A program made the position numbers and the translations under genes. From positions 1 to 27,046 of IMG/VR virus record IMGVR_UViG_3300046519_000202: a stretch of DNA of 27,046 nucleotides. One strand, written 5' to 3'. Position 1 is the stretch's first letter. The number at the start of each line of letters is the position of its first letter. The notes under the pieces were generated by a model. The model was not told the DNA's origin. It was given only the letters and a program-made list of their open reading frames with translations, and did no database searches. Shown piece by piece: positions 10,920 through 16,758 of this stretch. The stretch comes from a virus.

Positions 10920-12301
10920 GGGAGCTATTCAGCATCGAGGCCGAGCACGGCCTGCTGGGCGCGCTGATGCTCGACGCGTCCCTGTTCGACGAGATCACCG
11001 GCAAAGTGAGCACGCGCGACTTCAGCGACCTGGAGAACGCCGCGCTGTACCAAGCCATCATTGATACCCACGCCGCGGGCATGCCGTTTGACCCGGTGAC
11101 CGTGGGCGTTGAGCACCCAATGCTGCCCAGTGGGGAAAAAACCATCGCCTACGCCAGCGAGATTGCCGCCAACACGCCCAGCGCTGCCAACTGGAAGGCC
11201 TATCAGCGGGTGGTGCTGGAGCGCGCCGCCTTGCGCAAGGTCGTCGAGGTGGCGGACGTGATTCGCGACAGTGCCAGCGAGAATAGGCCGGTGGCGGAGA
11301 TCATCGCGCTGGCTCAACAGGCCACAGCTGATCTGCGCGACCTGGACGACGGCGCGCCGAAGTACCGCCGCCTCGACCAGGTGATGGGGGATGCCAGCCA
11401 GATCGTCGACGACAAGTTCAGCGGCCGGGCGCCGAGTTGGCCGGCCACTGGCCTGGCCAAGCTCGATGAACTGATGCAGGGCATACGGCCGAAGAAGGTC
11501 ACCGTGATTGCCGGCCTGCCCGGTAGCGGCAAGACCACGCTCGGCCTGCAGATTGCCCAGTACAACGCGGTGAAGAAGCGCAAGCCGTGGCTGATCTTCT
11601 CCATCGAGATGCCGGGGGAGGAACTGGGCGTGCGGGCGATCGCTGCGCTGGGCGGGGTCGATCTGCGTCGGCTGGACAACCCGGAGCGCATGAACACCGA
11701 CGACTGGTCGAACATGGTCAACGCGGTGGCGATGGCGGTGGATGCCCCGTTGTTTATCTGCGACGACCCAGTGCAGACCCCCGCCACCATCCGGGCCACT
11801 GCGCGGCAATGCGAGCGCGAGCACGGCCTGGCCGGCGTGATGGTCGATTACCTGGGGTTGATCCAGTCGGAGAAGAAAGGGCGTACCCGCAGCGAGGAAG
11901 TGGGCGCGATCAGCAAGGCCCTGCTGCGCCTGGCCAAGGAAATGGATATCCCGGTCATCGAGCTGGCGCAGTTGAACCGCGATTCCACCAAGCGGGTGGG
12001 CAAGCGGCCCCAGTCCAGCGACCTGCGCGATTCTGGCGAAATCGAAGCGGATGCCAGCTGCATCCTCATGGTGCACCGCGACATGGATACCGAGGAAGGC
12101 CAGAACGGTGTCACCGAGCTGCTGATGACCAAGTGCAGGCACGCCAAGGTCGGCAGTTGCGTCGTGCAACAGCAGGGCGAGTACGGACGATTCGTCGACT
12201 TCGAGGGCAACCCGTACGCGTCTGACGAAGAGGTCGAGATGGGCCGCAGCTTTGCCGGCCGTTTCAGCCACAAGGGGGTAGGCAATGACACACGCTTCTA
12301 A
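10916..12301 (+). CDS. DnaB-like replicative helicase
   Basis: 461 residues from the ATGA overlap at 10916; the frame continues upstream but there without coding fit. Residues about 1-100 are the DnaB N-terminal helical domain (EAEHGLLGALMLD), and about 165-440 the RecA-like helicase core with Walker A at 200-208 (GLPGSGKTT), Walker B near 309-316 (MVDYLGLI), the AQLNR motif (351-355) and SSDLRDSGEIEADA (367-380). It is the 5'-3' fork helicase of the phage. With its own loader and initiator, the phage carries a complete initiation set. Confidence 0.93.
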   Translation: MRELFSIEAEHGLLGALMLDASLFDEITGKVSTRDFSDLENAALYQAIIDTHAAGMPFDPVTVGVEHPMLPSGEKTIAYASEIAANTPSAANWKAYQRVVLERAALRKVVEVADVIRDSASENRPVAEIIALAQQATADLRDLDDGAPKYRRLDQVMGDASQIVDDKFSGRAPSWPATGLAKLDELMQGIRPKKVTVIAGLPGSGKTTLGLQIAQYNAVKKRKPWLIFSIEMPGEELGVRAIAALGGVDLRRLDNPERMNTDDWSNMVNAVAMAVDAPLFICDDPVQTPATIRATARQCEREHGLAGVMVDYLGLIQSEKKGRTRSEEVGAISKALLRLAKEMDIPVIELAQLNRDSTKRVGKRPQSSDLRDSGEIEADASCILMVHRDMDTEEGQNGVTELLMTKCRHAKVGSCVVQQQGEYGRFVDFEGNPYASDEEVEMGRSFAGRFSHKGVGNDTRF

Positions 12302-13637
12302 GACGGCCACGGTGATGATCAGTGACGCCGAGATCCGCCGCAATGCCGCCGGCGACCTGCGCCAGTTGCGCGACACCCGCCACCGCGCACTGCGCTTTCG
12401 CTACTCCACCACCGACCGCGCCAGAGGCTCGTGGCACGTCGTCGTGGCGGGGCAGTGGGGCAAGGCCGGGAATTTCCCCGACATCAGCACCAAGACGATG
12501 CTGGCGGCCTTGCCGGATATCCTCGTGCGGCGAGGTGCCGACGCTGAGGCGAAGTCCACCACCACCAACTGGGTGACGGTGGGCGACCTGCTGGCCTGGT
12601 ATCAGGATCGGATGGGCCGGGACCGGGGCCTGTCCACCAAGCGCAAGGCCAGCGCCAAGTCGGCGCTGACTTGTCACCTGCTGCCGTGCCTGGGCGACCT
12701 GCCGCTGGCCGGGGTGAACAAGACCGAACTGGACAAGCGCCTCATGTGGCCCATGCAGGAGCGTTTTGCGCTGTCGTTCGTGCGCTCGGTCTATGGCGTG
12801 CTGGCGGTGGCATTCCGGCAGGCGGCGCGGCTGGACATGCTGGCGCGCAACCCGATGGCCGAGCTGAAGTACACCGATTTCGTGCGTACCCGGATCAAGC
12901 CCAAGCCGGCCCGGCTGCGCGCGGATGACCTGCCGCCGCTGTTGCAGGTGCTGGCCGAGCAGTTCGACGCCAGCCCGGTGGAATCCATGCTGCCGCTGAT
13001 GATGCTCTGTCACGGCTGCCGCCTGGGCGAAACCCGGCTGGCGCGCTGGAAAAACGTCAATCTGGTGAGCCGGCAATGGTTCATCCCCGCGGCCGACACC
13101 AAGACCAAGGCCGAGCACACCTTGCCGCTGACCGCCCAGGCCTGCGCCCTGCTGGCGCGCTACCGGGCCAAGCAAGCGGCGAACGGCTACACCGGGCCTT
13201 TCCTGTTCCCCGGCAGCACCGGGGCTGCATTGAGTGCCAGCAAGGCCTGCACGGTGTTCACCAGCGTGGCCAAAGGCGAGTGGTCCAGCCATGACCTGCG
13301 CAAGGTGGCCCGCACCGCCTGGACGGACCTGGGCGTCGACTACATGGTGGGGGAGCTGCTGCTCAACCATGCCATGAAGGACTTGGACGCCACCTACATC
13401 CACACCACGGCCGAGGGCCTGAAACGCCGGGCGCTGGAGGACTGGCACGCGCACCTGGATACGGTCGGTTTCGAGGTGCTGCATACCGGGACATTGCCGG
13501 GACAGAACGCAACTGCTAATCCCGCGCAAGCCACGAACGGCGAGGCTTACAGCGCGATCAAGCATCCATCCCAAGGGAGGATGCAAAACCAAATTTCAAA
13601 GGGCCAAGCGCCCAGCCAGGAGACCGGCCATGAGTAG
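12285..13637 (+). CDS. Second tyrosine recombinase, in the replication operon
   Basis: 450 residues; the ATG at 12285 overlaps the helicase end by 17 bases. Residues about 95-200 are the core-binding domain, and about 210-385 the catalytic domain with the full set R246 (CHGCRLGE), a lysine in the beta hairpin (KTKAEHTLPL), H336 and R339 (SHDLRKVA), H362 (LLNHAM) and Y371 (DATYIH). The tail after about 400 is Gln/Asn/Pro-rich and looks disordered. It is distinct from the attL integrase and complete in catalytic residues. Its job is unknown; genome dimer resolution, a second attachment system or accessory recombination are possible. Confidence 0.88.
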   Translation: MTHASKTATVMISDAEIRRNAAGDLRQLRDTRHRALRFRYSTTDRARGSWHVVVAGQWGKAGNFPDISTKTMLAALPDILVRRGADAEAKSTTTNWVTVGDLLAWYQDRMGRDRGLSTKRKASAKSALTCHLLPCLGDLPLAGVNKTELDKRLMWPMQERFALSFVRSVYGVLAVAFRQAARLDMLARNPMAELKYTDFVRTRIKPKPARLRADDLPPLLQVLAEQFDASPVESMLPLMMLCHGCRLGETRLARWKNVNLVSRQWFIPAADTKTKAEHTLPLTAQACALLARYRAKQAANGYTGPFLFPGSTGAALSASKACTVFTSVAKGEWSSHDLRKVARTAWTDLGVDYMVGELLLNHAMKDLDATYIHTTAEGLKRRALEDWHAHLDTVGFEVLHTGTLPGQNATANPAQATNGEAYSAIKHPSQGRMQNQISKGQAPSQETGHE

Positions 13638-13923: not shown

Positions 13924-14471
13924 TGACGGTCTACCGCGATGTTGAACATGCCGTGATCCGCGCGATGACGCTGGATAGCATCTCGCTGCACAAGGGCGCG
14001 GCCTGGCAGAACAAGTACAAGCCTGATGGCTGGAAGCCGGGCAAGAGTGACAATCCGTGCCCGCTTGATCGCATGGAGCAACTGGCCCAGGACACAATGA
14101 CAAGGGCGCTCATCCGCCGGCTGATTCCGCCGCTGCACTGGAACCTGCTGGTGGCCTTCTACACCGTGTCCGAAACTGCAAGCCTGCAGCAGGAGCGTGC
14201 CCAGGCTATCCAGTATCTGGCCAGATCCGCGCCGGGCAAGTCCCATTCACTGTTCCGCATCAAGTGCGTTACCGCCTGGGCAGTTGAGAAGCTCCCCGAG
14301 GGCTTCATGCTGCTGCACACCTGGGACAATCTGGACAATCCCACACCGGAGAAGACACTGTACCGGTGGCGGTCGGATATGCGCCGGTGGCTGCGGCAAG
14401 AGACCGACAAAGCTTATGCCTGTGCCGGTGTTGTGTTGTTGCAGGCCGGCCTTATAGCAGAACGTCCTTGA
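13923..14471 (+). CDS. Hypothetical protein, last gene of the early operon; possible late regulator
   Basis: 182 residues from the TGATG overlap at 13923; the frame is open further upstream, but that part lies over the previous gene. It is helix-rich, with W-x(n)-W pairs (HWNLLVAFYTVSETASLQQE, LYRWRSDMRRWLRQETDKAY) and a basic C-terminal helix that could bind nucleic acid. I recognise no Q, NinX or RusA motif. It sits last in the early operon and just before a promoter-terminator pair, where lambda-like phages carry the late antiterminator, so a Q-like role is a positional inference only. Confidence 0.65.
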   Translation: MTVYRDVEHAVIRAMTLDSISLHKGAAWQNKYKPDGWKPGKSDNPCPLDRMEQLAQDTMTRALIRRLIPPLHWNLLVAFYTVSETASLQQERAQAIQYLARSAPGKSHSLFRIKCVTAWAVEKLPEGFMLLHTWDNLDNPTPEKTLYRWRSDMRRWLRQETDKAYACAGVVLLQAGLIAERP

Positions 14472-14488
14472 TCGAAATGTGAGCGACG

Positions 14489-14514
14489 ACGGAAAGCTCG
14501 ACGGAGCTTTCCGT
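14489..14514. repeat. Perfect 11-bp stem-loop at the end of the early operon
   Basis: ACGGAAAGCTC (14489-14499) and GAGCTTTCCGT (14504-14514) form a perfect stem with a 4-base loop (GACG). No T run follows on either side, so it is not a classic intrinsic terminator. It lies between two converging genes and may act as a two-way transcription block or an mRNA-stabilising end. Confidence 0.7.
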
Positions 14515-14546
14515 TCCGGGTGGTGAGGTGTTGCGTGGAGGGCAGG

Positions 14547-14888
14547 CTAGAGGCCCAGCTTCGAGATAGCGTAAAGACCACCTAGCCATAGGCGCCATCG
14601 GGCGCGGAAGCGGTCCAAGGGTTTGGGCCGCTGCCCTCCGCCCGCTATCCGTATCTCGGCCTTAACCTCGAATGCGGAGTAGCCCTTTTCTTGGAAATCG
14701 TTCCAGACATGCGGTGGATTAAATCCCACCAAGCGCTCCTCCGTGTTGAACTCTCTGCGCTCCTCCACGAGCTCAGATCCGATCCAATTGCGGGCGTTTT
14801 CGGGGATCAGCTCTACAGAACTATGGTCCGGTACTGCCAGAGCACGGCATCGCTGGTAGTTAAAATAGACCTTCGCTTCGAAGCGCAT
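14547..14888 (-). CDS. Hypothetical protein on the opposite strand (moron-like)
   Basis: 113 residues from the ATG at 14888, which has AAGGAGG 7 bases upstream; a TTG two codons earlier is too close to that site. It is basic, with an N-terminal beta-like stretch (MRFEAKVYFNYQRC), a middle acidic segment and a Trp/Arg-rich end (RFRARWRLWLGGLYAISKLGL) that could associate with membrane or nucleic acid. No family is recognised. It is a single leftward gene between rightward phage operons, with a strong ribosome binding site and no partner, which suits a lysogenic-conversion gene (inference). Confidence 0.6.
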   Translation of the reverse strand: MRFEAKVYFNYQRCRALAVPDHSSVELIPENARNWIGSELVEERREFNTEERLVGFNPPHVWNDFQEKGYSAFEVKAEIRIAGGGQRPKPLDRFRARWRLWLGGLYAISKLGL

Positions 14889-15047
14889 CCTCAATCCTCC
14901 TTACAGCACGCGGTGAAAGAAGAGCATAGCTGAGCGAACGATGGTTTGGCGGCCACCGTGCTGAGTTATCGCCAATGAAAGCGTTGGGTTGGTGAATAAC
15001 GGTGCGTTACGTCAGTCGCATAGCCCGCTTCCCTGCCAAGGTGTTTG

Positions 15048-15076
15048 TTGACAATGTGAGAAAATGAGAATCTAAT
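15048..15076 (+). promoter_or_regulatory. Strong rightward promoter, pR'-like
   Basis: TTGACA (15048-15053, perfect), a 17-base spacer, and TCTAAT (15071-15076, 5/6). A 7-bp inverted repeat CAATGTG (15052-15058) / CACATTG (15081-15087) brackets the -10 and could bind a regulator. Transcription would start near 15083 and meet a terminator at about 15144, giving a leader of about 60 bases. The rest of the 315-base gene-free stretch 14889-15203 shows nothing else that I can support. Confidence 0.8.
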
Positions 15077-15115
15077 TACCCACATTGCCATTCTGCGTCT
15101 ACAGGATGAGCACCC

Positions 15116-15144
15116 AAAAGCCCGGCCAATGTGTCGGGCTTTTT
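15116..15144 (+). terminator. Intrinsic terminator after the pR'-like promoter (tR'-like)
   Basis: AAAAGCCCG (15116-15124) pairs with CGGGCTTTTT (15135-15144) and ends in a T run; the loop is about 10 bases. It lies about 40 bases after the promoter -10 and before the first late gene, as tR' does in lambda. Confidence 0.82.
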
Positions 15145-15203: not shown

Positions 15204-15674
15204 ATGACGATATTGCATGATGTGTTAACCCAGTACTCGCTGTTCCTCGAAGCAGAGGGAAAATACGTTTCCAAACTGTCTAGAACAGCCGCGCAACTCG
15301 CTGACGGCTTGGAGAAGTACCTCGCCGGAGCAGCAGTGGGACGTCGCGACGAGATTGTGCGCCTCGGGATTGGTACAGAATTCAACTTCCGAAAAGTTGA
15401 ATGGACTGAGCTGACCTGTACTGAAAAGGTCATCGATTTCTCGCTTGCTATCAAGCTCACGGATCCTAGCGACTACGGAAATACCACAGAAGTGGTTTTT
15501 CAGATGGCGGTCCGTGCCGATGATAACGTCTACACCTTTGGGCTAAAAAACATGGGTGGACAAATCAAGATCTCGGATGTCGAGGTTCAAGGTGGTCGTT
15601 TTGGCCCCGTATACGAGGCCATTGTGACGAGGCTCAAAGCTCAATTCGATCCGGGCTACTATGCACTGGGTTGA
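15204..15674 (+). CDS. Hypothetical protein (accessory gene)
   Basis: 156 residues from the ATG at 15204, preceded by GGAGG 6 bases upstream; a longer frame crosses the terminator and is rejected. An N-terminal helical half (TILHDVLTQYSLFLEAEGKY) is followed by an alpha/beta half (NTTEVVFQMAVRADDNVYTF). No signal peptide, membrane segment or known motif is seen. The DNA is less G+C-rich than the flanking phage genes, which suggests separate acquisition. It is the first gene after the pR'-tR'-like pair. Confidence 0.65.
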   Translation: MTILHDVLTQYSLFLEAEGKYVSKLSRTAAQLADGLEKYLAGAAVGRRDEIVRLGIGTEFNFRKVEWTELTCTEKVIDFSLAIKLTDPSDYGNTTEVVFQMAVRADDNVYTFGLKNMGGQIKISDVEVQGGRFGPVYEAIVTRLKAQFDPGYYALG

Positions 15675-15748: not shown

Positions 15749-16174
15749 TCACGCCGCCTCAACCGATACGCTTAAACGTTTGCCCAGAGCGGCCAGCGCG
15801 GACTCAATCTGCTCCATTTTCGAAGTGTGCAGGAAGTCCACCAGCCGATCACCCTGGACCTGGTGAACGCCCAGCAGCCGGCGCAGATCAGCTTTGCGCA
15901 TATCGCGTTCCATCATGGTGTTCCAGAGCACGATCTTGGCTACGGTCACGGCAGGTAGGTGGATGACCTGCTCGCCTTGCTGTGGTGCCGATGCCTGCGG
16001 AATCGGGCGGCGTTGGTCGACGTAGATCGACAAGGTTGTCTCAATCGCATCAATAGCTTGGCTGACCGCATGCTGTTCATCATCACCGTAGCTGTTCAGC
16101 TCTGGAAGATCCCGGCAGAAAACGGCCAGGCCTGGAGCGGTGTCCTTTTCGAAACGAATAGCAAAGCTGTACAT
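15749..16174 (-). CDS. hicB: HicB-type antitoxin
   Basis: 141 residues. The N-terminal half is the HicB partial RNase-H-like fold (YSFAIRFEKDTAPGLAVFCRDLPEL, then AVSQAIDAIETTLSIYV), and the C-terminal third an HTH (MRKADLRRLLGVHQVQGDRLVDF). It should neutralise HicA and bind DNA to repress the pair. CGGAG lies 9 bases before the ATG. It follows hicA with a gap of 51 bases, the usual hicA-hicB order. It is on the strand opposite the late genes. Confidence 0.9.
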   Translation of the reverse strand: MYSFAIRFEKDTAPGLAVFCRDLPELNSYGDDEQHAVSQAIDAIETTLSIYVDQRRPIPQASAPQQGEQVIHLPAVTVAKIVLWNTMMERDMRKADLRRLLGVHQVQGDRLVDFLHTSKMEQIESALAALGKRLSVSVEAA

Positions 16175-16225
16175 GGTTTCATTCTCCGGGTGATGGCCCA
16201 GCGTTCAGAAAGGCGAAGGGGGCTA

Positions 16226-16408
16226 TCAAAGCCCCAGTTGTTTAATGATCGCCTTGCGGGTCGGTTCGGGCATTTCTTTGCTCCCGTGATCCGCGAAGGT
16301 TGTTTGGTTGCCGTTCGGGGCGGTGATCTTGAAGTGGCTACCTCTTTTGCCTGCTTCGAAGGTCACCCCTTGGGCCTTCAACCATCGTCTGAACTCGCTG
16401 AACTTCAT
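16226..16408 (-). CDS. hicA: HicA-type toxin (mRNA interferase)
   Basis: 60 residues from the ATG at 16408, the normal length of HicA. The dsRBD-like fold is clear: KFSEFRRWLKAQGVTFEAG, then GSHFKI with the conserved catalytic histidine (G-S-H), then DHGSKEMPEPTRKAIIKQLGL. The family cuts mRNA and arrests growth when HicB is lost. The frame is open further upstream, but the promoter -10 at 16437-16442 puts those codons before or at the transcript start. GAGG lies just before the chosen ATG. Confidence 0.92.
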   Translation of the reverse strand: MKFSEFRRWLKAQGVTFEAGKRGSHFKITAPNGNQTTFADHGSKEMPEPTRKAIIKQLGL

Positions 16409-16436
16409 CACCTCGCCTCGTTGTGTTGGTGAGGCC

Positions 16437-16483: not shown

Positions 16484-16492
16484 AGTCCATAT

Positions 16493-16715
16493 CCGGGGTG
16501 GCCCTTCGGGGGGAGCCCGGACACGGTATCGCCGGTCGTCACGTGTTACGAAAGAACACCGGCAGTTGAAGAGCCCTCCACCTCAAGATTGCTCCAGGGC
16601 GGCTTCAATGGGCAGCGTGGGAAGACACGCATGTTATGCAGATGAGAGCGTAGGCTGATGCGCAGTAGCCGTGCACGGGCGATTAACCTGCACAACCCGG
16701 CCGATCAGCACCGGG
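16493..16715 (+). other. Gene-free stretch rich in potential stem-loops, candidate structured RNA
   Basis: No gene is supported here. Successive inverted repeats are: CCGGG-n4-CCC-TTCG-GGG-n4-CCCGG (16493-16520), GCCGGT/ACCGGC (16531-16563), a nested pair TTGAAG-GCCCT / AGGGC-CTTCAA (16566-16608), GCGTG/CACGC (16615-16630), the palindrome CCGTGCACGG (16669-16678) and CCCGG/CCGGG (16696-16715). A terminator follows at 16733-16758. Such stems arise by chance in G+C-rich DNA, but the UUCG-loop hairpin and the 11-pair nested stem stand out. Confidence 0.4.
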
Positions 16716-16732
16716 CGTCTGCACCTATTACA

Positions 16733-16758
16733 AGCCTCGGCATTTGCCGGGGCTTTTT
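16733..16758 (+). terminator. Intrinsic terminator before the membrane-protein genes
   Basis: AGCCTCGGC (16733-16741) pairs with GCCGGGGCT (16746-16754), including one G-T pair, around the loop ATTT, and runs into five T. It lies 17 bases before the next start codon. Its surroundings resemble the 15116 terminator leader, so it may be the original terminator in front of the late genes. Confidence 0.75.

Follow-up and report, generated by a model that had tools for sequence, protein, structure and literature searches.

We propose that the window, by which we mean the whole 27,046-nucleotide stretch of viral DNA analysed here, contains the switch by which a Pseudomonas prophage turns on its late genes, and that this switch very probably works by Q-type processive antitermination through the 13923 protein. 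The contig is viral and has a lambdoid prophage layout: integrase, CI-like repressor, replication genes, the small genes 13630 and 13923, the promoter-terminator module, a holin-like gene and terminase (features of the module are collected in Table 1). In the scheme that we infer for pausing, loading and read-through, RNA polymerase would start near 15083, the predicted transcription start, and pause at the -10-like element. Without the regulator, it would stop at the tR'-like terminator, and the product would be a leader RNA some 60 nt long. The 13923 protein, which would be made late in the early operon, would bind TGAGAA-N2-TGAGAA between the -35 and -10 elements through a helix containing K144, L146 and Y147 and load on the paused polymerase. 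The polymerase would then be resistant to both terminators of Table 1, and the lysis and structural genes would be expressed. The mechanism itself is known, but the protein family that would run it here had not been recognised.

Table 1. Features of the late-control region, in window positions
Feature	Positions	Strand	Evidence or remark
Predicted Q-type antiterminator gene, 182 aa	13923..14471	+	phrog_3412, E 1e-29; AlphaFold model match
Codons 143-149, start of putative recognition helix (E-K144-T145-L146-Y147-R-W)	14349..14369	+	Residues 144, 146 and 147 covary with the repeat
Accessory ORF, 115 aa, no family	14550..14894	-	Inside an insert of ~577 bp between antiterminator gene and promoter
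-35 element TTGACA	15048..15053	+	Nearly all relatives have TTGA(C) directly behind the gene
Putative binding-element repeat 1, TGAGAA	15057..15062	+	Lag-8 repeat; covariation with protein
Putative binding-element repeat 2, TGAGAA	15065..15070	+	Lag-8 repeat; covariation with protein
-10 element TCTAAT	15071..15076	+	TCTAAT, TATAGT or TTTAAT in closest relatives
-10-like element CACATT, predicted sigma-dependent pause	15081..15086	+	A2 in 77/77 and T6 in 76/77 family members
Leader hairpin before terminator	15086..15112	+	z -3.1 in the window
tR'-like intrinsic terminator	15116..15144	+	Hairpin 15116-15143, 11 bp, -16.7 kcal/mol, T run at end
Second intrinsic terminator	16732..16755	+	Just ahead of the holin-like gene

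The sequence-only reading had described TTGACA-N17-TCTAAT followed by an intrinsic terminator, and every one of these elements is present. With its 17-nt spacer, this is the sole TTGACA-N16..18 promoter in the window with at least 5/6 matches to TATAAT, and shuffled windows average 0.05 of them. A simple promoter scan missed it because its -10 has no A at position 2, a base that is usually critical; the relatives share this feature. Promoter and terminator recur among the relatives far above chance, and a strong terminator lies at the same early distance in 58 of 82 relatives and in none of 410 shuffles.

The 13923 protein is a member of phrog_3412, to which no function is assigned. We found this family in 88 of the 399 Pseudomonas genomes searched, in none of 368 other genomes of the class, and in 50 phage records; the phages include F10, JBD44 and PMG1, and the PMG1 copy is recorded as similar to D3 Orf84. 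The records examined annotate the protein as hypothetical, flanked by recombination or small early genes (NinG, RusA and Lar, among others) and by a holin. The same architecture lies 3' of the family gene in nearly all of the 82 collected loci. A TTG[AC] -35 with a terminator follows 65 of the 82 family genes but only 7 of the 821 other ORFs that these loci contain, and when the spacer repeat is included the counts are 54/82 and 0/821; this definition of the module was set after the family had been seen, so the counts measure specificity and are no blind test. Homologues are encoded in L002 (87% identity by tblastn), L003 (74%) and L029/L046 (86%), where the stop codon is followed at once by the core GAGAAAATGAGAATCTAATTACCCACATTGCCATTCTGCGTCT and the terminator. 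An exact 17-mer genome scan gave one true new locus, L029; the other matches were taken as chance, mostly by their host, and only L015 was read. For alignment, 4 of the 82 loci (L074, L106, L112 and L121) were set aside by eye, and 77 distinct modules were aligned.

The predicted regulator gene lies directly upstream of the late promoter and before the lysis genes, with an insert between gene and promoter in the window. Both in the window (14472-15047) and in L112, accessory DNA sits exactly at this junction; in L112 the leader hairpin lies ~520 nt past the gene, an insert like the window's 577-bp one. Similar sequence thus flanks the window's insert, TTGATCGAAATGTGAG following the gene and the like TTGACAATGTGAG standing at the promoter. 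The insert with its accessory ORF is absent from L002, L003 and L029. Gene 13630 (phrog_4935) was considered as an obligate partner and rejected, being near the antiterminator gene in only 12/82 loci. A second tyrosine-recombinase-like gene (12285-13637) lies in the replication/late-control region, besides the integrase (527-1864).

That the window has no gene of a recognised Q family, as the sequence-only reading had it, was borne out by searches of curated families and solved structures. The 13923 protein has no Pfam or NCBIfam match, a PDB sequence search gave no match at E up to 10 and hence no detectable sequence homology to AlpA, and comparison of the family with the PF06530/Q21 profile gave an hhalign probability of 0.3%. 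Because of this lack of detectable sequence similarity, we place the family in neither PF06530 nor the AlpA sequence family. Its predicted fold tells more. Two AlphaFold models, one for the window protein and one for L104, a distant member from a different clade, have pLDDT values of 81.5 and 81.9, and both show the AlpA fold: AlpA is the top match of each (Z 13.1 across 143 residues for the first, 12.9 across 139 for the second), lambda Q is next (Z 8.3 and 7.7), and Q21 is third at Z about 5 (5.0 for the window model), in a comparison with chains preselected by Foldseek from 350,542 PDB chains. The Foldseek E-value for AlpA is a modest 0.008, with a probability of 1.00. Helical models may get middling Z values by chance; here known antiterminators lead both lists, and AlpA stands well above the unrelated entries. 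The idea of a new type of regulator therefore holds at the level of sequence and fails for fold and layout, which are those of the known Q and AlpA antiterminators.

The regulator probably binds a tandem repeat of 8-bp period that lies between the -35 and -10 elements. Across the promoter spacers, identity at lag 8 is 0.518 against 0.267 (sd 0.014) after shuffling, and other lags are at background; a perfect run of at least 5 at lag 8 occurs in 83% of 65 unique spacers and in 2.8% of shuffled ones. These are two repeats and not the single element of the AlpA family. The repeat, TGAGAAAATGAGAA in the window, also covaries with the protein. When all protein columns were compared with all repeat positions, the strongest associations included residues 146, 147 and 144 with bases 6, 5 and 4 or 3, though some lineage-marking columns outside the helix also scored high. 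The association of R144 with C4 holds in 77/77 modules, with 7 changes of each on a tree built without the recognition-helix columns; that of Y/H/W147 with A5 holds in 76/77, with 7-8 changes; and that of R146 with G6 in 72/77, residue 146 changing too seldom on the tree for a test. Supported independent pairs differing in both traits were all concordant (5/5 for residue 144 and 5/5 for residue 147, p 0.06 each, the lowest value reachable with only 5-6 supported pairs per trait). Close relatives switch protein and DNA together, as in L107 (SRR with TGATCG) and L073 (RRR with TGGCCG); one locus, L078, goes against the code. The window combines K144, L146 and Y147 with TGAGAA, and T145 is invariant in the family. 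Judging from these sequence comparisons, the family protein appears to read the repeat through the helix that carries residues 144, 146 and 147.

What has been shown by computation is which elements are present, how far they are conserved and linked, which fold is predicted and how protein and DNA covary. Because structure matches (AlpA, lambda Q and Q21), conserved gene linkage and covariation with the repeat all point to the 13923 protein, the earlier suggestion that it might be the regulator is supported, and the same three lines of evidence uphold the module as pR'-tR'-like late control. The covariation shows DNA recognition only, and together with the weak -10 it would also suit a DNA-binding activator that recruits polymerase at the repeat, the terminator being incidental. 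We regard such an activator as very improbable: activators seldom bind between -35 and -10, and the terminator and the -10-like pause element are conserved next to a protein with a predicted antiterminator fold. In the aligned modules, the hexamer after the -10 keeps A at position 2 and T at position 6 (Table 1). These are the two key positions of a -10 element, and the hexamer is as predicted for a sigma-dependent pause element.

Ahead of the terminator, the transcript can form a further hairpin. It covaries in 15 register-matched members, in which 87% of cells are paired, compared with 37-55% when the register is slid. The covarying pairs come from other clades; the window's own clade folds a hairpin at this place (Table 1). 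RNAalifold found no structure in a first ungapped alignment, because loop lengths differ, but found one in the register-matched set. A covariance model built from the other clades failed to recognise the window's hairpin on the correct strand, and any relation to the hairpins of those clades is only putative.

Such a hairpin ahead of a terminator might also belong to an attenuator or riboswitch-like leader that controls the terminator in cis, with the promoter serving the single gene 15204-15674, which starts 60 nt behind the terminator with a good ribosome site. We give this explanation little credit, about as little as the activator. Among relatives the module is constant but the gene behind the terminator varies (tRNAs, holins, an HNH endonuclease, unrelated ORFs), a search of viral contigs gave no relative of the 15204 protein, and the spacer repeat covaries with the upstream protein. 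With its downstream gene unconserved, the single-gene attenuator was rejected, and we keep to antitermination by the 13923 protein.

Several features of the late leader deserve mention in their own right. The gene directly behind the terminator is an orphan (156 aa, no family match). A HicB/HicA pair lies on the minus strand at 15749-16432, with 76% DNA identity to the same position in phage LESphi3, and late read-through would be antisense to it. The Rfam Proteo-phage-1 RNA (RF03044) occurs at 16487-16567 in the window and in L002 (6458-6536), L003 (6061-6140) and L047 (2619-2698); in the window and several relatives it is found past the tR'-like terminator, within the untranslated late leader, and its function could be linked to late transcription. 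Between tR' and the lysis genes, phages of this group repeatedly carry tRNA genes or tRNA-like sequences (L002 5999-6072, L003 5934-6007, L053 2884-2956, L119 3355-3427, L120 3954-4026).

The weakest alternative, a repressor-controlled promoter with an ordinary operon-end terminator, takes the inverted repeat CAATGTG/CACATTG as its operator. The arms do exist (15052 and 15081) and flank the window's -10, but they mean little: inverted repeats of this kind (7-mer arms, gap up to 23 nt) number 96 in the window, and the nearest relatives L002, L003 and L029 lack the left arm. The proposal that this palindrome is the regulator site was therefore dropped as unconserved and frequent by chance, and a repressor here is less probable still than the activator or the attenuator. 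The other arm, CACATTG, partly coincides with the conserved -10-like element of the initially transcribed region.

Among known systems, Q/pR'/tR' of phage 21 (6JNX, 6P18) is similar in its tandem element of 8-bp period between -35 and -10, its -10-like pause element and its terminator. The phage 21 Q-binding element consists of two TGAGCA repeats with C at -21 and -13, one protomer on each (PMC6606751), and L052 carries TGAGCA twice. The base readers of Q21 are A124, R127 and R128 beside T125 (PMC6606751), spaced as residues 144, 147 and 148 beside T145 in our family, and R127 with C5 of TGAGCA fits the R147-C5 rule of the family; this correspondence is inferred from spacing and not from a residue-level structural alignment. 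Q21 differs in having no detectable sequence similarity to the family and a weaker fold match (Z 4-5). AlpA of Pseudomonas aeruginosa (7XYA, 7XYB), also a polymerase-bound antiterminator, is the best fold match and likewise has an element in the promoter spacer and a downstream terminator. However, it uses one element and one protomer (PMC9371919, PMC7969949), controls a cell-death pathway and has no sequence match to the 13923 protein. Lambda Q/pR'/tR' shares gene order, promoter-terminator logic and the fold match, whereas its Q belongs to another sequence family and lambda requires an additional -35-like element (PMC6606751). In the Caulobacter gene transfer agent, GafZ is an antiterminator with a sigma-like helix-turn-helix and an element between -35 and -10 (PMC11150451), but it acts with the activator GafY and IHF, and its element is inverted, not tandem.

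Annotated PF06530 Q genes of Pseudomonas, which served as an informal positive control, have the same compact gene-promoter-terminator layout, and their profile matches Q21. In L131, L132, L142, L143, L144 and L150, the DNA immediately behind such genes holds TTGAC, then a GC-rich spacer, a -10, a box conserved around ACTTTGCGG and finally a terminator; this second compact late module would merit similar analysis.

Systems of this kind are known; in the literature covered, mostly non-subscription papers, we found no description of the family, of its tandem-site code or of the leader hairpin. We tentatively suggest, as an idea somewhat less likely to be right than wrong, that the recognition code (residues 144, 146 and 147 to bases 4, 6 and 5) lets phage late switches diverge yet stay insulated, and also that the conserved hairpin in the 5' leader gives an additional RNA loading or arrest signal, which classical Q systems are without. 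Our analysis puts forward a candidate for the missing late regulator, with its DNA site and the residues that set its specificity, and gives a probable function to a family annotated as hypothetical in roughly a fifth of the sampled Pseudomonas genomes and in the laboratory phages F10, JBD44 and PMG1. By linking an AlpA-like fold with Q21-like tandem sites, it makes the evolution and insulation of antitermination testable with natural protein-promoter pairs.
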